Assembly (NCBI GenBank): GCA_030748735.1
Contig: JASMLK010000088.1
Location: 1-47,216 of the forward strand
From: Myxococcota bacterium
GTDB lineage: Bacteria > Myxococcota_A > UBA9160 > UBA4427
Length of the DNA: 47,216 nucleotides
Direction: 5' to 3'
Positions within the stretch are counted from its first letter, which is position 1. Each line of letters opens with the position of its first letter. The notes beneath the pieces are model-generated. The model saw only the letters and a program-made list of their open reading frames with translations. It searched no databases and was not told where the DNA came from. Positions 2,287-25,937 of the stretch are shown here, one piece after another. A program made the translations under genes and the position numbers.

Positions 2287-4128
2287 ATGGCGTGCAGCCA
2301 ATGTGCGTCGCAGGACCGTCGTGCATCCCTGTCGCGTGCGACGCGACCAGGGCGCAGGCGCGCTCGGCGATTCGAGCGCGCCGTTGTCACCGTGCTGCTG
2401 GTCGCGCTCGCCGCTTCGGCGGGCACGGGTTGCGCGTCGCTCTCGGGGCTCGCCGGAGGCGGGTCGAAGGCAGCGGCCGCGCGCCCAGATCTCGGCGTCG
2501 AGTACGACGTCTTGCTCGCCGAGCTTTCTCTTTCCGATGGAGACATCGAGGGCGCGAAGCAGGCCCTCGAGCGCGCGATCGCGAAGGACCCCGAATCGGT
2601 CTACCTCGAGCTGCGCCTCGCGCGGGTCGAAGCGCAGATCGAAGATCTGCCGCGCGCCGTCGCTCACGCCGAGCGTGCGTTGGCCCTCGATCCCGAAAAC
2701 GAAGAGGCGCGCCTGCTGCTGGGTGGTTTGTATCGACTATCCCGCAACGTCGAGGCTGCCGAACGCGCGCTGCTCTCCGACGAGGGCGTTCCCTTCAGCG
2801 ACAGCGCGGCGTTGTTGCTGTACCAGGTCTACTTCGAATCCGAGCGGCTCGACGAAGCGCTCACCGTGACTGAGTACCTGGTCGCGAACCGCCCGGAAAT
2901 GCTCGGCGGCTTCATGGCGCTCGCGACGATCTACGAGCGCCTGGGGCAACCCGCGCAGGCCGAGCGCATCTTGCGCGAAGCCCTGCAGCGCCACCCCGAT
3001 CGCTTCGTGCTCTACAGCCGCCTCGCCCGACTCGAGCGCGCCAGTGGGGACCGGCTGGGTGAGATCTCGGTCTATCGCGAAGCCCTCGGCGAGCGCCCGA
3101 CCCACTACGGAAGCCTGTTGAGCCTCGCGGAAGCACTGGTGACGGCGAACGATCTCGACGCCGCAATCCGTACCTACGAGAAGATCGTCGAGCACTACCC
3201 CTCGGACGCGAAAGCCGTCCGGCGTCTCGCGTCCCTCGAGTTCGCTGCGGGGCGTCACGGACGCGCCGCGGCGATCCTCGAACAGGCGCTCGTCGACTTC
3301 CCCAACCACTACGAGTTCGCCTATTCGCTCGGCCAGGTGCGGCGCAGCATGGAGCAGCCCAAGCGCGCGAAGGAGGCGTTCGCACGGGTACCCGTTGGAG
3401 ACGCGAGCTATATCGAAGCGCGGGCCCAGATCATTGCGTTGCTCGAAGAACGCGAGGGCTTCGCTGCGGCGCTCGACGAAGTGAATGCGCTTCGCGCGAT
3501 GGCGCCTTCGCGCCCCCTCGACTTCCATGCCGCCGGCTTGTACCAGCGCACCGGCGACTTCGACACGGGCAAGCAGATCCTCGACGCCATTCTGGCGGAC
3601 GATCCGAACGACGAAGAAGCTTTGTATCAGCTCGGCGTCTACTACGGCATGGCCGATCGGCTCGACCGGGCGGTCGAGACCATGACGAAGGTGCTCGAGA
3701 TCAACCCCAACAACGCGCATGCGCTGAACTACGTGGGATACACCTGGGCAGAACGCGGGCAGAACCTCGAGAAGGCGGAGGAGATGATCGTCCGCGCCCT
3801 CGAGCAGCGCCCCAACGACGGCTTCATTACCGACAGCCTCGGTTGGGTCTACTACATGCGCGGTCGTTCACTGCTCAACACCCATCTCGACGCCCAGGGG
3901 CGCGAGTTCTTGATTCGCGCGCGCGATCAGTTGACCCTGGCCGCGGAACTAACCGGTGGCGACCCGGTGGTATCGGAACACCTCGGCGACGTGTACCGGA
4001 CGCTGAACGAGAAGCGTCGCGCCTTCGACTACTACCAGCAGGCCGTCGACATGAATCACCGCGAGGACGAGCAGCCGAACCTGCTCGAAAAACTCGACGA
4101 CCTGCGTCGGGAGTTGGGCGAGCTGTGA
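2287..4128 (+). CDS. TPR-repeat outer-membrane-type lipoprotein
   Basis: About 613 residues with an Arg-rich n-region, a hydrophobic core and a lipobox ending in AGTGC (lipidated Cys near residue 49), then a long array of tetratricopeptide repeats over most of the protein (for example the LALDPENEEARLLLGGLY, YEKIVEHYPSDAKAVRRLA and LEINPNNAHALNYVGY segments). TPR lipoproteins act as protein-protein adaptors in the envelope. I chose ATG 2287 because AGGA lies 7 bp before it; an in-frame ATG at 2248 adds 13 residues. It overlaps the LolB-like gene by 4 bp (GTGA), as is often seen where a TPR lipoprotein precedes lolB. The exact partner is unknown. Confidence 0.85.
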   Translation: MACSQCASQDRRASLSRATRPGRRRARRFERAVVTVLLVALAASAGTGCASLSGLAGGGSKAAAARPDLGVEYDVLLAELSLSDGDIEGAKQALERAIAKDPESVYLELRLARVEAQIEDLPRAVAHAERALALDPENEEARLLLGGLYRLSRNVEAAERALLSDEGVPFSDSAALLLYQVYFESERLDEALTVTEYLVANRPEMLGGFMALATIYERLGQPAQAERILREALQRHPDRFVLYSRLARLERASGDRLGEISVYREALGERPTHYGSLLSLAEALVTANDLDAAIRTYEKIVEHYPSDAKAVRRLASLEFAAGRHGRAAAILEQALVDFPNHYEFAYSLGQVRRSMEQPKRAKEAFARVPVGDASYIEARAQIIALLEEREGFAAALDEVNALRAMAPSRPLDFHAAGLYQRTGDFDTGKQILDAILADDPNDEEALYQLGVYYGMADRLDRAVETMTKVLEINPNNAHALNYVGYTWAERGQNLEKAEEMIVRALEQRPNDGFITDSLGWVYYMRGRSLLNTHLDAQGREFLIRARDQLTLAAELTGGDPVVSEHLGDVYRTLNEKRRAFDYYQQAVDMNHREDEQPNLLEKLDDLRRELGEL

Positions 4129-4928
4129 AACACCGCCGCTCTTTCCCGCGCGGCATGAAGGTGGGGATCGCGTTCGTATCGTTGTTGGGGGGGCTGGCCT
4201 GCCAGAGCACTCTTCCGCCGCGCATGCCGCTGGAGCCCGACGACCCGCGGCCGGCCGCCTGGCTGCGCGCCCACGAGACACGTGCAGACGCGCGATCGAG
4301 TTTGCGCGGAGCACTGCGTCTTTCTCTCGACGCACCGGACCTGCGCTTTCGGCGCCCGCAGCGGTTGGCGGTTCGCCGCCCGGCCGACCTGCGGCTCGAA
4401 ATCCTGGGTCTGTTCGGGCAGGTGGCAGCGGTGTTGGTGACGGACGGTGTGACCTTCCAGAGCTTCGATGCGGCGCGTGGCGCGGTGGAGTCGGGTGAAG
4501 TGACCGACGATCTGCTGTGGCGGATCGCGCGGGTCGATCTGCTGCCCGAGGAAGCGGTCGAATTGTTGCTCGGTGCACCGATGCCGAGCCACGAGGCCAC
4601 CGTCTCGGCGGCCTTCGCGCGACCGGGTGGGGGGATCAGTCTCGACTTGCGCGACAGCGGTGGGCAGATGCGCGATCGCATCGACTTCGACGCCGAGGGG
4701 CGCGTCGTCGACTTCATCCGTTACGACGCGAACGAACGCGTGATCTGGCATGCGACCTTTGCAGACTACCGCGAACACGCGGGTGACGAGTTTGCCTACG
4801 ACGTTCACATGCGCTTCCCCGAAGTCGATGCCGAAGCGACGCTCGTGTTCGACGATGCAAGCCTTCACGTAGACCTGGCGGACGAGCTCTTTGCCCTGCG
4901 AACCCGCGACGGGAAGGCACGCCAATGA
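4125..4928 (+). CDS. LolB-like / DUF4292-like lipoprotein
   Basis: About 267 residues with a lipoprotein signal ending LLGGLAC (Cys near residue 26). The body resembles outer-membrane lipoprotein acceptor LolB and DUF4292 proteins: an early SSLRGALRLSL beta-strand segment, then RRPADLRLEILGLFGQVAAVLVTDG, typical of the half-barrel that binds lipoprotein acyl chains. The GTG at 4125 overlaps the previous stop; an in-frame ATG at 4155 would give a shorter n-region. Together with the TPR gene and the following transporter it forms a run without gaps. Function as a lipoprotein-sorting acceptor is inferred from family resemblance, which is moderate. Confidence 0.72.
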   Translation: MKHRRSFPRGMKVGIAFVSLLGGLACQSTLPPRMPLEPDDPRPAAWLRAHETRADARSSLRGALRLSLDAPDLRFRRPQRLAVRRPADLRLEILGLFGQVAAVLVTDGVTFQSFDAARGAVESGEVTDDLLWRIARVDLLPEEAVELLLGAPMPSHEATVSAAFARPGGGISLDLRDSGGQMRDRIDFDAEGRVVDFIRYDANERVIWHATFADYREHAGDEFAYDVHMRFPEVDAEATLVFDDASLHVDLADELFALRTRDGKARQ

Positions 4929-6964
4929 TGCGAGTCGCGCAGTGGGTGTCGTCGGGCGCGGGCGTGGTCCGCTGTGTCGCGGTCTTCGCATGCGCTGCGT
5001 TCGCGCTCTCATGCTCGAACAGCCCCTATCCCGACCGCGACGACGACGTCAAGATTCTCTACTCGGTGTACGGCGAAGCGCCCAAGACCCTCGACCCGGC
5101 GGTTTCGTACAACGTGAGTTCGAGTCGGATCATCAGTGCGATCTGCGAAACCCTGCTCGAGTACCACTACTTGAAGCGCCCGTACGAGTTGATTCCCGGG
5201 CTGGCGGCCGCGATCCCCGAACCGGTCGAGCGCGCCGATGGCACCGTCGCCTATCCCTTCGCGTTGCGCGAAGGCGCCATGTACCAGGACGACCCCGCGT
5301 TCGAGTTGGGTGAGGTGGGTCGCAAGACCCGGCCTGTCGTCACCGCCGACTATCTCTTCGCGCTGAAGCGCCTGGCCGATCCCGCGGTGAACAGTCCCGT
5401 GGCCCACATCTTCTCGAAGATCGTGGGACTGCACGCTTTCGGAGAACGCCTCGTCGAACGCCGCAAGGAACCGAGCTTCGCGGCCTTGCCACTTCACGAG
5501 CAATACGAAGCGGTTGGACCGGTCGAGGGCCTGGTGGCGCAGGGCGACTACGCGTTCGAAGTCGTGATCGACGCTCCCTATCCCCAGATGCTCTACTGGT
5601 TCGCCATGCCATTCACGACCGCGGTGCCGTGGGAGGCCATTGCGTACTACGACGGCAACGAGGGGCGGCCGCGTTTCGCGGATCATCCGGTGGGTGCGGG
5701 GCCGTTTCGCATGACCCACTACGACAAGCAGTTCCGCATCGTGCTCGAGCGCAATCCCAACTGGTACGGCGCGATGTATCCGGAGTGGAAGGCGCCGGGT
5801 GCGGTCTATCCCGCGGAAGGCGAGCCCGCAGACCTCGAGAAGGGCATCACGAGCGACGCGCTCGCCGGACGACAGCTTCCGTTCCTCGACCGCGTGGAGT
5901 TCCGACGCGAAAAGGAGTCGATCCCCGTCTTCAACAAGTTCTTGCAGGGGTACTACGACAAGTCGGGGATCAACAAAGAAAGCTTCGACAAGGTCATGGA
6001 CGGCAATCAGCTTTCGGAAGACATGGCCGCCATGGGGATCCAGCTCGATCGCGTCGTCGACCTGGCGATCTACTACATCGCATTCAATCAGGCAGACGAG
6101 ACCCTCGGAGCGCCGGCCGGTGAACGCGGCAAGAAACTTCGTCAGGCCATGAGCCTCGCGATCGACGCCGAGGAGTACATCGAACTCTTCCACAACGGCC
6201 GCGGCATCCCGGCGCAGTCGGTGTTGCCGCCGGGCTTGTTCGGCTATGACGCCGACTATCGCAACGCATACCGCGAGCCCGACCTGGCGCGAGCGCGCGC
6301 GCTCCTCGAAGAGGCGGGGTATCCGGAGGGCGTCGACTCCGAGACCGGGTCTCCTTTGAAGCTGCGCTTCGACACCTACGCGACCAACTCCGCACAGCTC
6401 ATTCCGATCCGATACCTCGTCGATTCCTGGCGCAAGCTCGGCCTCGACGTCGAGGTCGAGAGCACGACCTACAACAAGTTCCAGGAAAAGGTCTTCAACA
6501 AGGCACACCAGATCTTCCAGTGGGGTTGGGTGGCCGACTATCCCGACCCCGAGAACTTTCTCTTCTTGTTGTCGTCGGGCATGGCCGGGCCGGGTGGGCC
6601 GAACAGCTCGAACTACCGCAACCCCGAATACGACGCGCTCTTCGACGCGATGAAGGCACGCCCCAACGACGAAGTGCGGGCCGAGACCATCCGCGAGATG
6701 CTTTCGCTGCTCGAAGAAGAGCGCGTCTGGATCGAGCTTCTGTACCGCGAGAGCTTCGTGCTCTTCCACGACTGGATCTCGCACTACAAGCCGCCGGGCT
6801 TCGAGTTTTCGACCCTGAAGTACCAGGACATCGACGCGCAGGCGCGTGCCGAGTGGCGGCGTGAGAACAACAAGCCGGTGTTGTGGCCCGCCTATGTGCT
6901 GCTCGCGATCTCGATCGCGGTGATCGTCCCGGGGATCGTGACCCTGATAAGGGAGCGTCAATAG
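4925..6964 (+). CDS. Peptide ABC transporter substrate-binding lipoprotein
   Basis: A 679-residue solute-binding protein of the OppA/DppA family (SBP_bac_5). The N-terminus is a lipoprotein signal with lipobox ALSC (Cys near residue 30). Typical features include YGEAPKTLDPAVSYNVSS at the start of the mature part, VGAGPFRMTHYDKQ, and the QWGWVADYPDPENFL block that normally lines the peptide pocket. It is roughly 130 residues longer than E. coli OppA, with a middle insertion. Unusually, the C-terminus carries a hydrophobic segment (about residues 653-674) ending in Arg-Glu-Arg-Gln, so the protein may be anchored at both ends. ATG 4925 overlaps the previous stop by 4 bp; the two permeases follow directly. 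Confidence 0.93.
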   Translation: MMRVAQWVSSGAGVVRCVAVFACAAFALSCSNSPYPDRDDDVKILYSVYGEAPKTLDPAVSYNVSSSRIISAICETLLEYHYLKRPYELIPGLAAAIPEPVERADGTVAYPFALREGAMYQDDPAFELGEVGRKTRPVVTADYLFALKRLADPAVNSPVAHIFSKIVGLHAFGERLVERRKEPSFAALPLHEQYEAVGPVEGLVAQGDYAFEVVIDAPYPQMLYWFAMPFTTAVPWEAIAYYDGNEGRPRFADHPVGAGPFRMTHYDKQFRIVLERNPNWYGAMYPEWKAPGAVYPAEGEPADLEKGITSDALAGRQLPFLDRVEFRREKESIPVFNKFLQGYYDKSGINKESFDKVMDGNQLSEDMAAMGIQLDRVVDLAIYYIAFNQADETLGAPAGERGKKLRQAMSLAIDAEEYIELFHNGRGIPAQSVLPPGLFGYDADYRNAYREPDLARARALLEEAGYPEGVDSETGSPLKLRFDTYATNSAQLIPIRYLVDSWRKLGLDVEVESTTYNKFQEKVFNKAHQIFQWGWVADYPDPENFLFLLSSGMAGPGGPNSSNYRNPEYDALFDAMKARPNDEVRAETIREMLSLLEEERVWIELLYRESFVLFHDWISHYKPPGFEFSTLKYQDIDAQARAEWRRENNKPVLWPAYVLLAISIAVIVPGIVTLIRERQ

Positions 6965-13676: not shown

Positions 13677-14324
13677 ATGGCCTTCGGCGCCGTCGATCGA
13701 TCCAGCAGTGGAACCCCGTTCCCGTCCTGCCGCTTCGAGTTCTTCGCGGCATTGGTTTCCCTTGCACTGCTCGTCGCCAGTCCTTCCTACGCAGGAGGGC
13801 GCCCCCTGGCGCTCGGTCTCGACCTCGCGGTGCAGCCGAGTTTCGGGATCTTCGGCGAGGACGACGTCGGCAGTCTCGCAGTGAACGAGATGGTCGACGA
13901 GTACACGACCGGGATCCGGATCGGATTCTTCGCGACCGACCGACACGAGATCCAGCTGGCGATCGACCTTTCCGACACCGAAGTCTGCGCGCACGTCCCG
14001 GGTACCGGCGAGCGTTGCCGCTACTCGGACTTCGAATCCTATACGGTCAACTAAATCTACAACCACAACGTTTGGGAACGGTTCGTCCCCTACGGCGTGA
14101 TCGGGGTCGGGGCCTACAACAACGAAACCGGTTTCGCGGACGACGACGGCCCCGCGGTCAGCATCGGGTTCGGTGCGCGCTACTTCCCCACCGACATGGG
14201 CCTGTACCTCGGACTCGACGCCCGAGCGCTCGGGTTCTTCGGTGACGACGCGACGACCGGGAACGGTGTCATCGGGCTCGCGATCGGTTGGGTCGTAGAC
14301 ACGACGCCGATCCTCGGCGACTGA
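13677..14324 (+). pseudogene. Outer-membrane beta-barrel protein, broken by in-frame TAA
   Basis: The frame opens at ATG 13677 with GGAGGAGG 8 bp upstream, encodes a signal peptide cleaved after SPSYA, and continues as a small beta-barrel-type outer-membrane protein with alternating aromatic and Gly-rich strands. At 14052-14054 the frame meets TAA, yet the same frame stays open for another 90 codons to TGA 14322-14324 with the same character (VPYGVIGVGAYNNETGF, ARYFPTDMGLYLGLDAR, GVIGLAIGWVVDTTP). The natural reading is one gene of about 215 residues with a nonsense change (for example TAC to TAA). Without readthrough the product lacks the C-terminal strands needed for barrel closure. Confidence 0.7.
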
Positions 14325-14381
14325 CCTCGAACGACCCGACCAGGCTCGTGCGAACGCCGAGCCGGCCGCTTCGGTCTGCGG

Positions 14382-15167
14382 TCAGGCCTTTCGTGCCGAG
14401 AAGTTGATCCCGACGGTTCCGAATCGTGCGGCGGAGTTCGACTGCGGTGCGCCGGCGAACACCTCTGCGCGCCACGTGATTTCGAAATCGCGAAACCCGG
14501 CGGCTTCGACCTTCGCTTCGAGCTCTGCATCCAGCAGAGCACCGGCGATTCAGCCGGTCCAGAGGTCGATCTTCTGTTTCGCTCCGTCGGGGACTTCCTT
14601 CGTCACCAGGATGTCGGCGATCTGCAGGCGGCCGCCGGGCTTGAGTACACGCTCGAATTCGCAGAGAGCGCTGTCTTTGTCCGGCGCGAGGTTCAAGACG
14701 CCGTTGGAGATCACGACGTCCGCCCAATCACGCTCGACCGGAAGGTCCTCCATGTGTCCCTCGCGGAACTCTACGTTGATGGCTCCGCCCTCTTTGGCTG
14801 CGCGTCGCGCGCGTTCGAGCATGCCCATCGTCATGTCCACGCCGACCACTCGACCCTGATCGCCGACCTGCTTGGCTGCGATCAGACTGTCGATTCCCGC
14901 GCCCGAGCCCACGTCCAGGACGCGTTCACCGGGGTTCAGCATGCCCATGCGGAACGGGTTGCCCGTGCCGGCGAACGATTCGATCGCGGTTTCGGGTATG
15001 TCTTCGAGCCAGGCGTCCTCGTAGCCGACGATCCGGGTGAGCGCGCGCCCGGTATGAAAATGGAAGCCCTGGTCCGGATGCTGGGCGACCTCTTCGTATT
15101 CCCGCTGGATCGCTTCGCGCAGCTCCTGACGATCGACCCTGGGAACTCCCCCGCCTGATGACCCCAT
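14382..15167 (-). CDS. ArsM-like SAM methyltransferase, probable selenoprotein (Sec206)
   Basis: Class I SAM-dependent methyltransferase of the arsenite-methyltransferase-like branch. ATG 15167 is preceded by AAAGGAG. Motif I is VLDVGSGAGID (83-93), the acidic SAM-ribose residue is in VVGVDMT (D111), and VISNGVLNLAPDKD follows motif IV. The frame stops at TGA 14550-14552 right after KIDLWTG, exactly where ArsM/AS3MT proteins have their conserved catalytic Cys (LW-x-x-C-x-x-GAL). After the TGA the same frame continues for 55 codons with the expected family C-terminus (IAGALLDAELEAKVEAAGF, ending NFSARKA) to TGA 14382-14384. With the hairpin just after the UGA, the simplest reading is a 261-residue protein with selenocysteine at 206. 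The other arsenic-binding Cys (SNC in ArsM) is Gly here, so the substrate need not be arsenite. If Sec machinery is absent, it is instead a truncated pseudogene. Confidence 0.82.
14522..14552 (-). promoter_or_regulatory. Bacterial SECIS element after in-frame UGA
   Basis: Read on the minus strand: UGA (14552-14550), 9-nt spacer, then GCTCTGC - TGGAT - GCAGAGC, a perfect 7-bp stem with a 5-nt loop whose second and third bases are G. Sixteen nucleotides separate the UGA from the loop. These values fall within the known limits for bacterial SECIS elements recognised by SelB (loop 16-37 nt from the UGA, small apical loop with G in the first two positions). Confidence 0.8.
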
Positions 15168-15450
15168 GGTTTCTCCTTTCGGTCCAGCGTACCAGCGACG
15201 GGCGAAGGAGAGCAACCTCGCGTCGCCTGGAGCGCGCAGGCTCCGTCTCGCGCCACGTGGATTGCGGCATCTGTGTGGGGCTTCGCTTCTGACGGAATGA
15301 CGCGAGCCTCACACCGGCGTGGACGGGCGCGTTTCTCACAACGCGACGGCCCCGCGATGCCCGGCGCCACGACTAAGTTGGCACCGGCGAAGAGCCGATG
15401 CGGTGAGACACGCGGGAGCGTACCGATCCCGCCGAATCGCCGGGGCCCGA

Positions 15451-16282: not shown

Positions 16283-16984
16283 ATGGAGCCATTCGTGGCC
16301 AAGAGTCCCTGGATCTCCGATCTCCACTGGGTCAGGGTGGGTAGCCAGGCGCGCAGTCAGCGCACCCAGGCTGCACTGCTCGACGCCGCCGAAGTGCTCT
16401 TCTTCGACAAGGGCGTCGAGGCGACCTCGGTCGCCGATGTCGCGGCGCGCGCGGGCAGCTCGGTCGGCGCGGTCTATCACCACTTCCGCGACAAGAAGGC
16501 GCTCGTCTACGCGTTCTTCGACCGCCTGGCTGCCGAGTTCCACGCCACCACCCTCGACGCAGTCGATCCCGCGCGTTGGGAGGGGGCTTCGATCGCGGAT
16601 GTGTTGAAGGGCTATCTCGAGTTCTCACTCGAGATCGGTCGAGCGCGCCCGGGTGTACATCGCGCGGGCCTCGAAGTGTCGCTGCGCGACCCGACCGTGC
16701 GCGAGAACCTGAGCGAAGTGCGCGCCGAACTCGACCGCGGGCTCGCGGCACTCGTGCTGGCACGCCGCAGTGAGATCGGACACCACGACCCCGCGATGGC
16801 CTGTGCGTTCGTGCTCGACCAACTCGGTTGCATGGTGCGCAACCGTCTCGAAGGCGACCCCGGTGCATCTCCCTTCGAGACGCGTTCGGACGAGGACTTC
16901 GTGCGCGAAGCCCTGGCTTCGGTCGGCGCCTATCTGCAGCTTCGCTCGCCCCGAGAAGCGAAGGCAAAGGAGCAAACGCAATGA
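16283..16984 (+). CDS. TetR/AcrR-family transcriptional regulator
   Basis: A 233-residue regulator. The N-terminal TetR DNA-binding region reads RTQAALLDAAEVLFFDKG then a helix-turn-helix in SVADVAARAGSSVGAVYHHF (about 49-68), followed by the KKALVYAFFD helix. The C-terminal ligand-binding half is helical and not assignable. Its last bases overlap the molybdoenzyme alpha gene (ATGA), so the regulator is the first gene of the operon and probably controls it together with itself through the palindrome at 16234-16255. A hydrophobic substrate or metabolite of the enzyme is a likely inducer (inference). An alternative start is GTG 16295. Confidence 0.93.
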   Translation: MEPFVAKSPWISDLHWVRVGSQARSQRTQAALLDAAEVLFFDKGVEATSVADVAARAGSSVGAVYHHFRDKKALVYAFFDRLAAEFHATTLDAVDPARWEGASIADVLKGYLEFSLEIGRARPGVHRAGLEVSLRDPTVRENLSEVRAELDRGLAALVLARRSEIGHHDPAMACAFVLDQLGCMVRNRLEGDPGASPFETRSDEDFVREALASVGAYLQLRSPREAKAKEQTQ

Positions 16985-19935
16985 CGCAGTCGAATTCGCC
17001 CGCTGGCTGGCAACTCGGCCGCCGCCGCTTTCTCGAGCTGGCCGGCCTCGCCACCGCAGCCACGACCACGGGCTGTTTGCCGTTCGTGCACCTGAAGGAA
17101 GAATCCCCGGCCGGTCCACTCGCTGACGGTGCGATCGCGGGCCGCACGGAGAAGCTCGGCAGCTGGCAGGACCTGTATCGCCAACGCTGGACCTGGGACC
17201 GCGTCGCCAAGGGCACCCACGGTTGGCTCAATTGCCGCAGCGCGTGCAACTTCGATCTCTACGTGAAGGACGGCGTCGTGGTTCGCGAAGAACAGTCGGC
17301 GACCTACGAAGCGTCAGAGCCGGGTGTTCCCGACTTCAACCCGCGCGGCTGTCAGAAGGGCGCTTGCTACACCGAAGTGATGTATGGGCCGAGTCGCTTG
17401 TCGGTTCCCCTGAAGCGCGTCGGCGAGCGCGGCGCGGGCCAGTGGGAGCAGATCTCCTGGGACCAGGCGCTGGCCGAAATCGGCGAGAAGCTCGTGAAGA
17501 TCGCCGAAAAGGACGGCGCCGACAGCATCATCCACGACCTCGGCCCCCACTTCGACAATGGCCCCACGACCGCGGCACGCGTGCGCTTCTTCGGCATGAT
17601 GGGCGCGACGCTCTCCGACGACTGGGCCGAGATCGGTGACCTCAACCACGGGGCCACACTGACCTTCGGCTTTCCCCATGTCGGCGGTGGTTCGGACGAG
17701 TGGTTCCTTTCGGACTATCTCGTCGTGTGGATGATGAATCCGGCGGTGACCCAGATCCCCGACGCGCACTTCCTGTTCGAAGCGAAGTACGACGGTGCGG
17801 AGCTGGTGGTGGTCGATCCGCAGTACAGCGCCACTGCGGTGCACGCCGACCAGTGGCTGCCGATCCGCCCCGGTGCCGACACCGCACTGGCATTGGCGAC
17901 CGCAAAGCACATCTGGGACAGCGGCCGCATGGACCTCGACTACGTGCGCGAGCAGACGGATCTTCCGGTGCTCGTTCGCCTCGACACGGGCCGCTTTCTC
18001 AACGAGTCCGACCTCGAAGAAGGCGGCCGCGCATCCGTCGTGTTCGTCTGGGACGCCGACGATGAACGCCCGGTGCCCGCCCCGGGTAGCCCCGACAACA
18101 CGCGGCAACCGCGCCTCGACGATGGCAAGGTCGAACCACCCATCGAAGGACGCTTCTCCATCACGCTCGCCGACGGCAGCGAGACCTTCGTCGTACCGGT
18201 CGGCTCGCTCCTGCGCGAGCACCTCGAAGCCTGGAGCTTCGAAGCCGCCGCCGAAGTCACGGGGCTCGCGGTCGAGCAGGTCCGGGAGTTTGCGGAAGGC
18301 TTCGCGCGCGCCGAGCGCCCGATGGTGCTCTCGAGTTGGGGTTCCAACCGCTATCTGCATTCGGACCAGATGAACCGCGCGAAGATCCTGTGCCTCTCGC
18401 TCAAGGGCGCGGTCGGTCGCAAGGGTTCCGGTTATCACTCGACCGGTTGGATCGAAACCGGAAGCCTCGGCATTGGCGACAAGACGGGGCTGGCCGGCCG
18501 GCTCGCGCTGTTCTCGCAAATCGGCATGGGCACACTCTTCGACATGGCGATCGACCGGGTGCGGGGTCGCATCAGCGAGCAGCGCATGATGTGGGAACTC
18601 GGCGACATCCTGGGCGAAGACATCGCGTGCATGACCAACGCCGCGAGCATGAACCTCGCCATCCAGGGCATCGCAGACGATCTCGATCGCGAACAGGACG
18701 GACTCTACCCCCGGCCACTCAGCGCCTACGATCGCGAAGCACGCGAAAAGGACTGGATGCCGCGGCTTCCCAAGGACAAGGCGCGCGCCTGGGTGACGGG
18801 GGGCAACAACGTCCTGCGTCGTTCGAATCTCCCCCAGCGCTCCCTCGAACACCTCTGGCCCGAACTCGAACTCATCGTCGATGTGAACCCGAAGTTCACC
18901 TTCACGGGCATGCACGCCGACTACCTGCTTCCCGCGGCGGGCTATTACGAAAAACGCGGCATCAAGTATGCGGTCGCGTACATCCCCTATCTCCACTACT
19001 GCGACGCGGCCGTCGACCCCATCGGTGAATCGAAGGACGAGTGGTGGATCTTCTGGAAGCTCGCCCAGGAGGTGCAGCGTGTGGCGCTCGAACGGGGCAC
19101 CCCAGAGCTCGACGGTTGCGGGAAGTTCCCGGTCGACCTTTCGAACTTCGGCGACCGCTTCTCCTTCTACGGCAAGTTCGGCCCCGAAGAGACGGACAAG
19201 GTCACGCAAGAGATGCTGAACAACGCTGCCACCACCGACAGGATGACGGTCGCCGAACTCGAGAAGACCGGCACCCAGAAGTTCCAGAGCGCAGGCGGGC
19301 CGAGCGGGCAGCCGCAGTTGTTCAACGACGAATGGAAGGGGGAGGGTGTGCTCTACGCCTGCACCCACTTCACCGAAGAGAAGTGGCCGTGGCCGACGCG
19401 CACGGGGCGGCAGCAGTTCTACATCGACCACCCCTGGTTCCTCGAAGTGGGCGAAGCGCTGCCGACCCACATCGAGAGCCCCAAGGCCGGCGGCGACCTG
19501 CCATTCCAGCTGATCTCGTGCCATGCACGCTGGAGCATCCACAGCGTCTGGCGCGACGACCCGATGATGTTGCGCCTGCAGCGCGGCGAACCGGCGCTCT
19601 ATCTCAACCCCGACGATGCGCAGCGTGAAGGCATCGATGACGGCGATTGGGCCGAACTCGAAAACCGCATCGGCAAGGTCTACATGCGGGTCAAGTACTC
19701 GACGATGGTGCGGCCCGGGGTCGCGTACTACTTCCACGCCTGGGAACCGCATCAATTCCCCGATCACGAGTCCTACAAGTTCGTGACGCCGGGTCTGATG
19801 AATCCTCTCCATTTCGCCGGTGGTGAAGGACAGCTGAGCTGGCGCTTCGGGGTGTGGGAACCGGGTACGCAGGTACAGGACACGCGGGTGGCCATCCGGC
19901 CAGGCAGGCCCGCCGGACAGGAGGTGTCGTCATGA
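16981..19935 (+). CDS. Type II molybdoenzyme alpha subunit (ethylbenzene dehydrogenase-like)
   Basis: A 984-residue Mo-bis-MGD catalytic subunit of the DMSO reductase family. It carries a Tat signal (GRRRFLELAG, 13-22). The FS0 [4Fe-4S] site is H80, C85, C89 and C124, and the His ligand marks the type II clade. The Mo-ligand Asp is most likely D220 in EIGDLNHGATLTFG, near the ethylbenzene dehydrogenase ligand Asp223. This clade includes ethylbenzene, p-cymene and steroid C25 dehydrogenases (oxygen-independent hydroxylation of hydrocarbons) as well as dimethylsulfide dehydrogenase, selenate, chlorate and nitrate reductases. The subunit set with a gamma heme protein and the sequence style fit the hydrocarbon hydroxylase side best, but the substrate is not readable. 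No in-frame UGA. Confidence 0.9.
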   Translation: MTQSNSPAGWQLGRRRFLELAGLATAATTTGCLPFVHLKEESPAGPLADGAIAGRTEKLGSWQDLYRQRWTWDRVAKGTHGWLNCRSACNFDLYVKDGVVVREEQSATYEASEPGVPDFNPRGCQKGACYTEVMYGPSRLSVPLKRVGERGAGQWEQISWDQALAEIGEKLVKIAEKDGADSIIHDLGPHFDNGPTTAARVRFFGMMGATLSDDWAEIGDLNHGATLTFGFPHVGGGSDEWFLSDYLVVWMMNPAVTQIPDAHFLFEAKYDGAELVVVDPQYSATAVHADQWLPIRPGADTALALATAKHIWDSGRMDLDYVREQTDLPVLVRLDTGRFLNESDLEEGGRASVVFVWDADDERPVPAPGSPDNTRQPRLDDGKVEPPIEGRFSITLADGSETFVVPVGSLLREHLEAWSFEAAAEVTGLAVEQVREFAEGFARAERPMVLSSWGSNRYLHSDQMNRAKILCLSLKGAVGRKGSGYHSTGWIETGSLGIGDKTGLAGRLALFSQIGMGTLFDMAIDRVRGRISEQRMMWELGDILGEDIACMTNAASMNLAIQGIADDLDREQDGLYPRPLSAYDREAREKDWMPRLPKDKARAWVTGGNNVLRRSNLPQRSLEHLWPELELIVDVNPKFTFTGMHADYLLPAAGYYEKRGIKYAVAYIPYLHYCDAAVDPIGESKDEWWIFWKLAQEVQRVALERGTPELDGCGKFPVDLSNFGDRFSFYGKFGPEETDKVTQEMLNNAATTDRMTVAELEKTGTQKFQSAGGPSGQPQLFNDEWKGEGVLYACTHFTEEKWPWPTRTGRQQFYIDHPWFLEVGEALPTHIESPKAGGDLPFQLISCHARWSIHSVWRDDPMMLRLQRGEPALYLNPDDAQREGIDDGDWAELENRIGKVYMRVKYSTMVRPGVAYYFHAWEPHQFPDHESYKFVTPGLMNPLHFAGGEGQLSWRFGVWEPGTQVQDTRVAIRPGRPAGQEVSS

Positions 19936-20957
19936 CCGCGACCGAAACGAATCGCCAGATCGCGATGGTGCTCGATCTGAACAAGTGCATCGGTTGCCAG
20001 ACCTGCACCGTTGCGTGCAAAAAGCTCTGGAACAAGGACACCGGTACGGGGTACGCGTACTGGAACAACGTCGAAACCCTCCCCGGCGCGGGCTATCCGC
20101 GCAATTGGACCGAGACCGGTGGTCGAACCGACCAGGGGGAGGTGAAGGCGGGAAGCGTCCCGAATCTCGACGAAGACTACGGCCGCGCCTGGACGTTCAA
20201 TCACGACGAAGTGCGTGCCCGCGCGGGCGAAGGCGAACAGAAGCCCTGGCTACGGCCGAAGGAAAAACCGAAATGGGGCGCCAATTGGGACGAGGACCGG
20301 GGTGAAGGCAGTTATCCGCAAGACAACCACTACTTCTACTTGCCGCGGCTCTGCAACCACTGCACCCATCCCGCATGTCTCGACGCGTGTCCGCGCCATG
20401 CGATCGAAAAGCGTGACGAAGACGGCATCGTGCTGGTCGATCAGGATCGTTGCCACGGTTATCGCTTCTGCGTGGAGTCCTGCCCGTACAAGAAGGTCTA
20501 CTTCGACCCCCAGCGACAGGTGACCACCAAGTGCATCTTCTGTCTGCCGCGGGTGGAAGAGGGTGTGGCCCCGGCCTGTGCGCGTCAGTGTCCGGGTCGA
20601 CTTCGCTTCGTGGGCTATCTCGACGACGAAGCGGGGCCGATCTGGAAGCTCGTGCACGAGTTCGCGGTGGCCCTGCCGTTGCATCCCGAATTCGATCTCG
20701 GGCCCAACGTCTACTATGTGCCGCCGATGAGTCCACCGAAGCTCGACGCACAGGGCCGCCCCACCGACGAGCCCCGCATCCCCACCGCGTACCTCGAAAG
20801 CCTGTTCGGGAAACAAGTGCACGGTGCGCTGCGCATCCTCGAACTCGAACGCGCGAAGCGACGCCGAGGCGAAGCGAGCGAACTGATGGATCTCTTGATC
20901 GCCTACGACTGGAACGAAAACTTCGCTCTCGGTGAGCGCAAGCGCGAGGTGCTGTGA
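19932..20957 (+). CDS. Type II molybdoenzyme beta subunit (Fe-S electron transfer)
   Basis: A 341-residue ferredoxin-like subunit passing electrons from alpha to gamma. Cys groups are C19-C22-C25-C29, C141-C144-C149-C153, C174-(Y177)-C180-C184, and C201-C204-C216-C220. In the third group the second Cys is Tyr (CHGYRFC), as in relatives where that cluster is [3Fe-4S], so three [4Fe-4S] and one [3Fe-4S] cluster are expected. No signal peptide is present, so it is probably exported folded with alpha by the Tat system. ATG 19932 overlaps the alpha stop by 4 bp. Confidence 0.93.
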   Translation: MTATETNRQIAMVLDLNKCIGCQTCTVACKKLWNKDTGTGYAYWNNVETLPGAGYPRNWTETGGRTDQGEVKAGSVPNLDEDYGRAWTFNHDEVRARAGEGEQKPWLRPKEKPKWGANWDEDRGEGSYPQDNHYFYLPRLCNHCTHPACLDACPRHAIEKRDEDGIVLVDQDRCHGYRFCVESCPYKKVYFDPQRQVTTKCIFCLPRVEEGVAPACARQCPGRLRFVGYLDDEAGPIWKLVHEFAVALPLHPEFDLGPNVYYVPPMSPPKLDAQGRPTDEPRIPTAYLESLFGKQVHGALRILELERAKRRRGEASELMDLLIAYDWNENFALGERKREVL

Positions 20958-21505
20958 TGGTTCACAAGGTTTCATTGATTGCGGCGCCCACGGGCCTCTC
21001 GCCCGGGGGCTATGTCAAGAAGGCCTTCGCCGACCGAAATGCTCCGCAGACACCCGTTGCGGAACTCGAAGTCGTGAAGGGCCTGACGGGTTGGCGGATT
21101 CGACTCGAGTGGGACTGCAGCGACCCGGTCACATCGCTTGCGGACGACGTCGATCGCTTCGTCGATGCGGCCGCGATCCTCGCCCCCGGTGCCCCGGACG
21201 CACCCTGGATGAGCATGGGAGCGCCGGGCAAACCGGTGGAAGGCGCGCTGTGGCGTGCGGATCGCGAAGCGCTCTTCGGCGTTCGCGCAGAGGGCCTCGG
21301 TACGGTCGAACGCAGTGATGCCCCGGCCGGGTGGAGTGCGATGGCGGATCGCCAGGCCGGAAAGTGGCGCGTTTCCTTCCACGCCCCCTCCTGGTCGGCC
21401 CTCGACGCGCAACAGCAACTCGCCGTCGCCGTCTGGCAGGGCGCGAAAGGTGATCGCGGCGGACTCAAGAGCGTGTCGTCGGGCTGGATCGCGGTGGGCT
21501 CGTGA
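20957..21505 (+). CDS. Type II molybdoenzyme gamma subunit (heme b, EB_dh-like)
   Basis: About 182 residues matching the EbdC/DdhC-type heme b subunit. The candidate axial ligands are M87 in the PWMSMGAPGKPV segment and K171 in GGLKSVSSGW, which correspond to the Met/Lys pair of ethylbenzene dehydrogenase. ATG 20957 overlaps the beta stop (TGATG); GTG 20954 is an alternative. No signal peptide is visible, although known gamma subunits of periplasmic members are often Sec-exported, so either it travels with the Tat-exported complex or it stays in the cytoplasm. Confidence 0.82.
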   Translation: MVHKVSLIAAPTGLSPGGYVKKAFADRNAPQTPVAELEVVKGLTGWRIRLEWDCSDPVTSLADDVDRFVDAAAILAPGAPDAPWMSMGAPGKPVEGALWRADREALFGVRAEGLGTVERSDAPAGWSAMADRQAGKWRVSFHAPSWSALDAQQQLAVAVWQGAKGDRGGLKSVSSGWIAVGS

Positions 21506-22788: not shown

Positions 22789-25587
22789 TCAGTCGACGCT
22801 TTCTCCGTCGGCGTCGATGAACTGGATGGGGCCGAGTTCGAGGGCCCGGATCGGAGCCTCGATCTGCGCGCGGTCGCCGATCACGATCCAGGTCAACGCG
22901 TCGGGGCGAAGAGCGAATGTTGCGGCTTCTGCTGCTGCACCGCCGTCGACGGCCTCGATCGCGGCTGCATAGTGATTCCAGTAGTCGTCATCGAAGCCGA
23001 AGCGAACGATCTCGGCGATCGAAGACGCGACGGCGGCTCCGGTTTCCCAGCGCCCCGGTAGCGACAGCGTCTGCACGTTCTTCGCGCGCTCGATTTCGTC
23101 GGCGCTCGGTGGGCGAGCGCCCTGGATTTCACGCAACTCCTTCACGATTTCGAGCATCGAGTCGGTGGTCTTGTCGGTCTGCACTGCTCCGTAGACGAAG
23201 AAGGGGCGCTGCCCGCGGGCGCTCACGAAGGCGCTGTGCGCACCGTACGACCAGTGCTTGTCTTCGCGCAGGTTGCGGTTGATGCGCGAGTTGAAGCCCG
23301 CGCCCAGGACTTCGTTCATGACTTCGATCGCGGGTTCGCGCGGCGTTGCCTTCGGTGGGCCGAGGTGCCCGGCAAAGACCATCGATTGAATCGCCCCGGG
23401 GCGATCGATCAGGAAGACGCGCGACTTCGCCTGCGGCACCACTTCCACGATGTCCTTGCTGGCTGCTTTACGCGCCTTCCACTTGCGAAAGAGTTTCTCG
23501 AGCTTCGGAACGATCTCCTGTCGCGTCGTGTCGCCGACGACGACCAGGGTAGATGCCGAGGGCGCAAACCAGCGCGCGTGAAACGCGACGAGATCGTTCC
23601 GCGTGAGGGCTTCGACCGACTTCCGTGTTCCCGAGCCGGTGAAGGGAAGCCCGTACGCGTGGTTCCGGCCGAAGAGCAGCCCGGGAAAGACGCGAAGCGC
23701 AATGCGAAAGGGCGTCACGCTTTCCTGTTCGATCGCGGCCAACTGCATGGCCCGGCGACGTTCGAATTCGTCGGGAGCGAAGGCGGGGTTCAGGATGACG
23801 TCCGCAAAGAGTTCGAGCGCAGGGTCGAGGTCGCTGCGAAGGGCGGAAAGCTCGACGATCGAAAGGTCGAGGTTCGACCGTGTCGAGAGTTCGGCCCCCA
23901 GGTCCGCGAGGGCATCGTCGATTTCGAGCGCGCTTCGCGTGCGCGTACCCTGGGGCAGCATGTCGAGGGCGAGCTTCGCGGTTCCCGCACCGTCACTCGG
24001 GTCCGACGAATAGCCGGCATCGACCAGGAGTTGGAACGACACCGTCGGGACGCTGTGGCGCGGTACGACGATGATGTCGAGGCCGCTCTCGAGGGTGTCC
24101 CGCTCGACACTCGGAAACACGACCTGCGGCGCCGGGCCGACGACCGGAAGATGTGCGCGATCGGCTTCGTCTTCGCCCGCCTTCGCCTGTGACGCGGGAT
24201 GGACCTCGAGGACGAACACACCGTCGTGGATCCAGCGTTTCAGCGCCCCACGAATGTCCTTCGCTCGCGCGCCTGCGATCGTCTCGAAGCTGTGGAGGTA
24301 GGCGTCCGGCGAACCGAAATAGACTTCACTCTGCGCGAGGATGTCGGCTTTTCCGCCATAACCACCCACCGATTCGATCCCGCGCAGAAACGACGCGCGG
24401 AACTGCGTCTTCGTACGTTCGACTTCCTTCCTGGTCGGCCCCTTCGATACGAGACGTTCGAGTTCCTGGTCGAGTGCGCGCTCGACGGCAACGGGGTCGG
24501 CACCCGGCGCTACCGTGGCCCACACGACGAGGAGACTTCCCAACTGCCGTTCCCAGGTGAAGGCGCTCACGTCGGTGGCGATCTGGTCTTCGTAGACGAG
24601 TCGCTTGTAGAGCCGTGACGACTTGCCTTCTGCCAGGATACTGCTCGCCATGTCGAGCAGGTCCGTTTCTCGGTGCCCGGTTTCGGGGATGTTCCAGACC
24701 TTGATGATGCGCGACTGTGGCACGCGGTCGTAGGTGCGCAGTCGCGACGCTTCGTTACGTTCGGCGACCCAGCGCTCGCGCTGGCCCACGGGCGGCCCGG
24801 GTGCGACGCCGCCGAAGTAATGCTCGACCCGTTCGCGCACCGCCTGGGGATCGACATCGCCCGCGATCGTCAAGACTGCGTTGGCCGCGCCGTAGAAGCG
24901 CTCGAACCACTTGCGAACGTCGTCGAGGCTCGCCGCGTCGAGGTCCTTCATCGAGCCGATCGTCGGCCAGCGATAGGGGTGGCCATCGGGATAGGCGTTC
25001 TTGCCGATCAGCCGATAGACCGCGCCATAGGGTTCGTTTTCGTTCTGGCGCTTCTCGTTTTTCACCACACCGCGCTGCTCGTCGAGGCGTTCCTGGCTGA
25101 TGGCGCCTAGCAGGTGCCCCATGCGATCCGACTCCATCCACAGCGCGAGGTCGAGCGCATTGATCGGGACAGTTTCGAAGTAGTTGGTTCGATCGGAATT
25201 GGTGGTCGCGTTCTGGTCGGTCGCGCCCACCCGGTCGAAGGGCAGGGTGAATTCGGCGTTGTAGTGCTCGCTTCCTTCGAACATCAGGTGCTCGAACAAG
25301 TGCGCGAAGCCGGTCTTGCCGCGGCGCTCGTTCTTGGAGCCGACGTGGTACCAGACGTTGACCGCGGCGATCGGCGCCTTGGGGTCGCGGTGGACGATCA
25401 GCCGGAGCCCGTTGTCGAGGACGAACTTCTCATAGGAGATCCGCAAGTCGTCGAGTTCCCGCGCGTCGCCTTTTGCCGCGGCAGGCAGTGCGATTGCGAG
25501 GGTCGCGAGCGCGAGCGATGCGAAGACCAGGTGGTCGAAGGCGCTTCGGGGGGCCTGGCGGGTGCAGCGGCGAACGGGCAGGGTCAT
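22789..25587 (-). CDS. Two-domain M16 (pitrilysin-like) zinc metalloprotease
   Basis: About 932 residues with an N-terminal signal peptide (cleavage near ALPAAA/KG). The first M16 domain has the inverted zinc motif HLFEH (about 96-100, with E99 catalytic) inside GKTGFAHLFEHLMFEG, and the downstream Glu ligand probably lies in the RGVVKNEKRQNENEPYG stretch. The second half is another M16 fold without the HxxEH motif (region after FPSVERDTLESGLDIIVVP), the usual active/inactive pair that closes around peptides. It is probably periplasmic. Start uncertain: ATG 25587 gives the cleanest signal peptide and has GGAG 12 bp upstream; ATGs at 25605 and 25614 are in frame. It would be transcribed with the TSUP gene. 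Confidence 0.92.
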   Translation of the reverse strand: MTLPVRRCTRQAPRSAFDHLVFASLALATLAIALPAAAKGDARELDDLRISYEKFVLDNGLRLIVHRDPKAPIAAVNVWYHVGSKNERRGKTGFAHLFEHLMFEGSEHYNAEFTLPFDRVGATDQNATTNSDRTNYFETVPINALDLALWMESDRMGHLLGAISQERLDEQRGVVKNEKRQNENEPYGAVYRLIGKNAYPDGHPYRWPTIGSMKDLDAASLDDVRKWFERFYGAANAVLTIAGDVDPQAVRERVEHYFGGVAPGPPVGQRERWVAERNEASRLRTYDRVPQSRIIKVWNIPETGHRETDLLDMASSILAEGKSSRLYKRLVYEDQIATDVSAFTWERQLGSLLVVWATVAPGADPVAVERALDQELERLVSKGPTRKEVERTKTQFRASFLRGIESVGGYGGKADILAQSEVYFGSPDAYLHSFETIAGARAKDIRGALKRWIHDGVFVLEVHPASQAKAGEDEADRAHLPVVGPAPQVVFPSVERDTLESGLDIIVVPRHSVPTVSFQLLVDAGYSSDPSDGAGTAKLALDMLPQGTRTRSALEIDDALADLGAELSTRSNLDLSIVELSALRSDLDPALELFADVILNPAFAPDEFERRRAMQLAAIEQESVTPFRIALRVFPGLLFGRNHAYGLPFTGSGTRKSVEALTRNDLVAFHARWFAPSASTLVVVGDTTRQEIVPKLEKLFRKWKARKAASKDIVEVVPQAKSRVFLIDRPGAIQSMVFAGHLGPPKATPREPAIEVMNEVLGAGFNSRINRNLREDKHWSYGAHSAFVSARGQRPFFVYGAVQTDKTTDSMLEIVKELREIQGARPPSADEIERAKNVQTLSLPGRWETGAAVASSIAEIVRFGFDDDYWNHYAAAIEAVDGGAAAEAATFALRPDALTWIVIGDRAQIEAPIRALELGPIQFIDADGESVD

Positions 25588-25772
25588 GGTTCGGACGGTC
25601 TCCATCGTGGGCATGCTTTTCTGACTGACGCGACGAGGGGGGGCCGTGGCTGCAGCTCGGCGCGGATTGTAATGGTGGTTGCTGCCCTCTTCAAAAGCTG
25701 AAACGTTGCGAATTTCGCGGAGGTTCCCCGGCCGCTGCGCATTCGTGGTCAAGCAACCGCGCCCCGAGGTCG

Positions 25773-25937
25773 ATGAAGCCGACGACGAGACACGGCTTTC
25801 AGGGGGCTCGGCGACACGTGGCACTGCGAATGCTTGCCCAGATCATGATCGAGAAGGGCTTGATGACCCGCGATGAATTCCAACAGCGCATTGCCGTGCT
25901 GAGCGCATGCGACGAAGGAGATCTGCCTGGCGATTGA
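25773..25937 (+). CDS. Small ORF, 54 residues, unknown
   Basis: ATG 25773 to TGA 25935-25937, with GAGG a few bases before the start. The C-terminal part, MLAQIMIEKGLMTRDEFQQR followed by a short acidic tail, looks like a real helical segment of the ‘EKG-x-x-T-x-E/D-E-F’ type common in nitrile-hydratase-like and short coiled proteins. It reads away from the M16 gene. Too short for a firm call. The rest of 25588-25772 should contain the promoter of the M16 gene; no clear box was seen. Confidence 0.4.
   Translation: MKPTTRHGFQGARRHVALRMLAQIMIEKGLMTRDEFQQRIAVLSACDEGDLPGD

Follow-up and report, generated by a model that had tools for sequence, protein, structure and literature searches.

Does an in-frame TGA at codon 206 of an ArsM-like methyltransferase gene end the protein, or is it read as selenocysteine (Sec)? 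And if it is read, what does the enzyme methylate? The gene lies on the minus strand of contig JASMLK010000088.1, 47,216 nucleotides (nt) from a Myxococcota bacterium (assembly GCA_030748735.1). We call this whole stretch the window, and all coordinates are positions in it (Table 1). We believe the gene very probably encodes a selenoprotein, an ArsM-like methyltransferase dependent on S-adenosylmethionine (SAM), a confidence that does not extend to any particular substrate. The decoding of UGA 206 as Sec is, from the nucleotide comparisons, near certain in our judgement. Recoding is strongly supported because selA, selB, selD and tRNA-Sec are in the genome, relatives share the TGA, the hairpin behind it is conserved and the codons there are under synonymous constraint.

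The reading frame through codon 206

The initial annotation, made from the letters of the window alone, claimed a TGA at codon 206 followed by 55 codons in the same frame, and took recoding to be far more likely than chance nonsense. Both claims hold. The TGA is where it was placed (14552-14550), the frame stays open for 55 more codons, and the residues they encode align with full-length Cys homologs; several residues C-terminal of 206 are conserved among homologs. An ordinary nonsense mutation or a sequencing error in a decaying gene would agree with the database entry for this gene (P0002), which ends at residue 205. It would not agree with the same TGA in 20 loci, a conserved protein downstream, a stem kept paired in all 20 of them, synonymous constraint, and the presence of selA, selB, selC and selD. 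We find this explanation barely credible.

It is also conceivable that the 205-residue product is itself functional, made under selenium scarcity, since most of the SAM-binding core precedes residue 206 (the Pfam Methyltransf_31 match covers residues 78-207). We saw no support for a stable truncated protein, and the conservation past 206 argues against it as well, so we regard this idea as improbable. A promoter scan gave no promoter and one terminator-like site, at chance level.

Table 1. Features of the methyltransferase gene in the window (all on the minus strand)
Feature	Position	Strand	Evidence
ArsM-like methyltransferase coding sequence	14382..15167	-	261 residues, Sec206 predicted; ATG at 15167; terminal stop TGA 14384-14382; homologs and fold
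TGA codon 206, putatively read as Sec	14550..14552	-	TGA in 8/9 related loci; Cys in 109/119 database homologs
Apical hairpin of the bacterial Sec insertion sequence (bSECIS), 7-bp stem GCTCTGC/GCAGAGC, loop UGGAU	14522..14540	-	140/140 cells paired in 20 sequences; 5' arm GCTCTGC 14540-14534, loop TGGAT 14533-14529, 3' arm GCAGAGC 14528-14522
Extended hairpin around the SECIS core, predicted fold	14513..14548	-	-19.8 kcal/mol, z = -3.2
Codons 207-215, strong synonymous constraint	14523..14549	-	83% codon identity among same-residue pairs
AAGGAG, ribosome-binding-site-like	15173..15178	-	5 nt upstream of ATG, read off the sequence
DVGSGAG, residues 85-91, presumably the SAM-binding motif	14895..14915	-	Asp85, Gly89 and Gly91 invariant in 49 aligned homologs
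Thr68, at the CmArsM Cys72 position	14964..14966	-	Thr in 119/119 database homologs
Gly156, at the CmArsM Cys174 position	14700..14702	-	Gly in 119/119 database homologs and 23/23 TGA-bearing loci
His36-Phe37-His38 of the FHFHTGR motif, close to where CmArsM 42-44 aligns	15054..15062	-	alignments

The hairpin after the TGA

A perfect 7-bp hairpin beginning 9 nt past the TGA had been proposed as a bacterial SECIS element; its bases and coordinates are right, and it agrees with the published rules. The bSECIS model asks for a loop of 3-9 nt, a stem of 4-16 bp, a G within the first two loop positions, a distance of 16-37 nt from the UGA and a minimum free energy of -7.5 or lower (PMC13188914). 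Here the loop is 5 nt and starts with UG, the stem is 7 bp, and the spacing is 16 nt, the lower limit. The predicted folding energy is -13.6 for the 25-nt hairpin core and -19.8 kcal/mol for a 43-nt stretch, whose z-score relative to 200 shuffles is -3.2.

Comparison with relatives puts the hairpin beyond chance. All 140 stem cells in the 20 TGA-bearing loci are paired, against a mean of 96.6% in shuffles and 19-45% when the stem is slid. Both sides have changed in three of the seven stem pairs, all within locus L068, whose stem differs at the same place, and the loops vary over the loci (UGGAU, UGGAA, UGGAG, CGGAG, AGUCU, CGUGU). Codon identity among same-residue pairs is 83% in codons 207-215 and 81% in codons 208-216, against 46% both in codons 1-205 and in codons 218-261. 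The most constrained two of 250 overlapping 9-codon windows begin at 206 and 207. The Cys relative L029 has five of the seven stem pairs left by manual count, and folding no longer gives that hairpin. An Rfam search of 14300-15400 found no match up to E = 1; gene-specific hairpins such as bSECIS need not be in Rfam.

Selenocysteine machinery

The obvious check on a selenoprotein was to look for selA, selB, selC and selD in the same genome, a draft of 160 contigs (94.84% complete, 1.48% contamination). All four are present, each above its curated cut-off: selA at 508.9 bits (cut-off 267.9), selB at 297.7 (242.25), selD at 321.5 (125) and tRNA-Sec (selC) at 73.2, for which ARAGORN reads the anticodon as tca. 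The selD gene (G000:C113:1104-2030, minus) has one in-frame TGA of its own, in GGUARK, which we take to be the active-site Cys/Sec position. SelD is thus likely a selenoprotein itself, judged by its coding sequence, and the genome probably holds at least one other Sec gene.

The association of selA with the methyltransferase in other genomes is a weak control, selA being common there. In the 396-genome draw described below, selA is in 13/13 genomes with a match against 251/396 overall (p = 0.0024), and in 10/10 when the three genomes that led to the draw are left aside (p = 0.009). It is in all nine genomes of the first set of related loci, including the genome of the Cys form L029.

Homologs and the distribution of the TGA

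The first set consisted of 28 pattern-matching stretches, 9 of which encode a relative. Codon 206 is TGA in eight of these related loci, from Acidobacteriota, SAR324 and UBP12; the ninth, L029 (Chloroflexi), has TGC. We then have 396 genomes from the phylum of another locus, L021, with up to 6 candidates scored per genome: 13 genomes have a match (E <= 1e-60), and 13 of their 14 matches carry one in-frame TGA, each at codon 206. The SAR324 group adds three genomes with a match out of 52, all with TGA. These three and three of the 13 phylum matches are loci already in the first set. Each counted once, and with three loci too distant for this count (L077-L079) set apart, there are 20 TGA-bearing loci including the window. 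A further one-TGA match, in locus L080 of genome G065, belongs to a different protein, with TTC at the aligned position, and was left out.

The gene is patchy. Across 147 genomes around and including the window's, the window's genome is the only one with a close ortholog among the matches listed, the next best being a TGA-bearing relative at 45% in G012.

If the TGA stands for Sec, homologs should have Cys or UGA there, and mostly they do. Of the 119 database homologs listed, 109 carry Cys as residue 206, four end just before it and six have another residue. The four with Trp (P0004, P0007, P0013, P0019) are all from jgi sources, and a gene caller may have read TGA as Trp. Trp at this position would fit a reassignment of TGA to a sense codon, for Trp or Gly, in the window's genome. 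We consider this very improbable: 10 of 18 window open reading frames (ORFs), picked by length and codon-position G+C, end in TGA; the terminal stops of the 20 TGA-bearing genes are 10 TGA, 7 TAG and 3 TAA; and the homologs mostly have Cys, not Trp.

TGA and Cys forms are about 60-70% identical, and a tree of 54 rows places them in one clade, split from six canonical ArsM rows at 100/99. For this tree, cut proteins were grouped with the TGA rows. It excludes L077-L079, the rows with Trp, Tyr or Arg, and L029, which is without its first 62 residues. The TGA label changes five times, and at least three changes are forced by well-supported branches; L028 (TGA) and P0038 (Cys), for example, are sisters at 99/98. 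Most Cys rows fall within one inner group of 25 rows (92/82), together with two TGA rows. The deeper branches all carry TGA apart from L073, a long-branched Cys row. With Cys mostly inside and TGA mostly deeper, Sec may have given way to Cys on more than one occasion in this clade, a tentative polarization since the canonical rows are attached by a long branch.

Three distant ArsM-like loci from the window's bacterial family (L077, L078 and L079, in G006, G014 and G007) share TGA at 206 and Gly at 156, but their hairpins are quite different.

ArsM likeness and the missing cysteines

It is important to separate two parts of what the initial annotation said, that this is an ArsM-like methyltransferase with Sec at the conserved catalytic Cys. 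The likeness stands: by sequence and by fold, ArsM structures are the top matches, the modelled fold is that of an ArsM-like SAM methyltransferase, and residue 206 aligns with CmArsM Cys224. The predicted fold would put Sec206 beside the methyl donor. What does not stand is the implied arsenite site. Equivalents of CmArsM Cys72 and Cys174 are absent from 119/119 listed database homologs and 20/20 TGA-bearing loci. ArsM proteins are expected to have at least three of CmArsM cysteines 44, 72, 174 and 224, according to a rule applied in PMC5552862. The window protein has Thr68 for 72, Gly156 for 174 and Sec206 for 224, at most two of the four even if Cys44, which falls outside the printed alignment, is granted and Sec is counted as Cys. 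It also scores 235.4 bits against NCBIfam NF008823, under the cut-off of 263. With these two arsenite-binding cysteines gone, arsenite cannot be assumed to be the substrate. On the aligned residues, As(III) cannot be held as it is in CmArsM.

There are other candidate ligands. His36 and His38 are invariant in 49/49 aligned homologs and 20/20 TGA-bearing loci, and in the structural alignments, going by their range ends only, model residue 36 is the first, paired with chain residue 42 or 44. This matters for the view that the protein is a true arsenite methyltransferase, with Sec206 as its single chalcogen ligand plus histidines. As(III) methylation by TtArsM of Thermus thermophilus is reported to involve a single Cys and, as proposed ligands, two His (PMC8649762). 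The best matches to ArsM structures agree with this view, and so does L028, where genes for an ArsR-type regulator and an MFS protein precede the methyltransferase and the MFS frame crosses a run of N. The arguments on the other side seem stronger to us. Two of the three aligned arsenic-binding cysteines are absent, the family cut-off is missed while the same genome has a canonical ArsM (contig 58, L081) at 306.1 bits to NF008823, the Cys of TtArsM is at position 77 and not aligned with the window protein, and no arsenic family in Pfam was matched by any of 10 ORFs around the gene. We think arsenite itself an unlikely though not negligible substrate, and a soft element of some kind a reasonably probable one.

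Neighbouring genes and fusions

Fusions and neighbours give hints of chemistry on sulfur, selenium or metals. A TusA domain (PF01206) is found on 18/120 listed homologs. A DsrE-family gene on the same strand adjoins the TGA form in L090 (6006-6392, +) and also the Cys form in L029 (934-1293, +), a different lineage. L094 has, at 3731-5359 (minus), a Cys-form ArsM-like paralog with a heavy-metal-associated (HMA) domain and a weak, sub-cut-off MerT match; it lies divergently to the TGA gene, from which a sigma-factor gene separates it. All three favour an enzyme whose substrate is not arsenic but a sulfur, selenium, tellurium or mercury species; TusA/DsrE-type carriers might, for example, deliver a persulfide or perselenide on a protein. 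The second DsrE neighbour, in L029, raised this possibility in our estimation and lowered that of arsenite. The loci are few, though, and among the 30 of 61 comparison rows listed no such gene recurs in the other stretches. We therefore hold the idea as possible, somewhat short of an even chance.

The neighbour comparison covered 447 ORFs in 24 stretches, antisense ORFs inside the methyltransferase gene having been removed, and what we say of recurrence refers to the best 30 of its 61 rows. Repeats are mostly between the close relatives L083 and L084. The others are L028/L070 (MFS), L029/L071 (DsrE) and a weak match of the window to ABC proteins of L083/L084. Among the 10 ORFs scanned against Pfam around the window's own gene, there were none of the DsrE, TusA, HMA, ArsR or MFS types; the ORFs that Pfam did match belong to a SIMPL-domain gene, a TetR regulator and a cluster for a molybdopterin enzyme.

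That cluster (16828-21505, +) is of the type II dimethyl sulfoxide reductase family, and each of its three subunits has ethylbenzene dehydrogenase among its named relatives. The molybdopterin subunit scores 798.7 bits to TIGR03479, below the cut-off of 984.75, the Fe-S subunit 500.4, above 480.7, and the heme b-like subunit 81.6, below 169.85. At 22789-25824 (-) is a 1011-residue protein whose halves are weakly similar, below cut-off, to the YfmH and YfmF families. The TusA carriers include P0005, P0009, P0027 and P0039, and 22 of 119 homologs are at least 340 residues long.

A possible mechanism

SelB would read the hairpin and insert Sec at the UGA. The Sec206 selenolate, occupying the position of CmArsM Cys224, would capture a soft, thiol-loving substrate next to SAM, with the invariant His36 and His38 perhaps helping to hold it. 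That substrate could be a chalcogen or metalloid species, a persulfide or perselenide or a Se, Te, Hg or As(III) compound, and would then receive the methyl group of SAM. Ordinary arsenite methylation would fall to the canonical ArsM elsewhere in the genome. As a tentative picture of the whole, which we would not back over all others combined, this is a patchy clade of selenoprotein methyltransferases in which the arsenite site was lost and Sec plus His-x-His ligands, served by TusA/DsrE-type carriers, carry out selenium-dependent methylation of sulfur, selenium or another soft element.

Several observations count against parts of this picture. The Sec machinery genes are not on the window's contig, and the genome is a draft with 1.48% contamination. 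The selA association is weak, since selA is common in the draw and is in the genome of the Cys form L029 too. The three double stem changes come from a single sequence, L068, and the 20 loci were picked for having TGA. The six homologs with neither Cys nor a cut end at 206 are four Trp, one Tyr and one Arg; the Tyr and Arg forms are one supported tree pair, so a chalcogen at 206 is not absolutely required there. Hints from the neighbourhood are few, with DsrE and MFS recurring in two loci each among the rows listed, and a TusA match in L029 scores 26.0, below its cut-off of 28.6.

If Sec206 is the sole chalcogen ligand, the enzyme would show selenium replacing a three-thiol metalloid cage, and surveys equating arsM-like genes with arsenic-methylation potential could over-count. 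Since the four nearest tree relatives, like the window's gene, have database entries truncated at residue 205, the clade can easily be overlooked or annotated as arsenite methyltransferase. Given how similar the TGA and Cys forms are, Sec and Cys could be compared directly in one enzyme.

Comparison with known systems

The initial annotation pointed to Sec-containing methyltransferases of this kind in marine metagenome surveys. The pointer was correct: a Sec-containing arsenite S-adenosylmethyltransferase is in a table of the Global Ocean Sampling survey (PMC2398784), and a table of PMC5029168 gives the numbers 39 and 41 for a Sec-containing arsenite methyltransferase. Two reviews catalogue it as well (PMC9312934, PMC13188914). 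The newer of them gives the motif as UxxG, places the family before the 'predicted' block and cites a 2007 Science paper. Having been catalogued since the ocean survey, the Sec itself is of a known kind. The window protein resembles this catalogued family (PRK11873 / NF008823) in being ArsM-like with one Sec and a UxxG motif (U-I-A-G), and differs in falling below the NF008823 cut-off and in being without the Cys72 and Cys174 equivalents, which the catalogued cases, known to us by table and not by sequence, may lack too.

Three fused ArsM-type Sec families with 2-3 Sec each are catalogued in a table of the same review (PMC13188914). NF041537, NF041536 and NF047649 (ArsM-type fused to AhpD, DUF2284 and UXPK-star) share with the window protein an ArsM-like domain with UxxG, whereas the window protein is one methyltransferase domain with one internal TGA. 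Its highest-scoring NCBIfam family is NF041537, which covers residues 10-231 of 261, with no second domain, at 236 bits against a cut-off of 510; NF041536 gives 216.4 bits (cut-off 575) and NF047649 213.2 (cut-off 460), with no second Sec. A search for NF041537 over the 396 genomes found no match anywhere, the controls likewise being without a match.

Sec at this position of ArsM-type proteins is therefore already known. A TGA-type ArsM clade without the other cysteines, that is, loss of the other arsenite-binding residues across a clade, we did not find described in the searchable portions of the open-licence PMC literature. A further parallel is TtArsM, alike in its single chalcogen residue and in His as proposed additional ligands. 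Its Cys lies in the N-terminal domain according to the text of PMC8649762, so the two are likened by description. Canonical ArsM (CmArsM, 4fr0, and the window genome's own paralog) shares the SAM fold and a chalcogen at the Cys224 position. The contrast lies in the rest of the site: the 29/29 TGA-free relatives in the locus set have Cys at 68, 156 and 206, where the window protein has Thr, Gly and, we believe, Sec.
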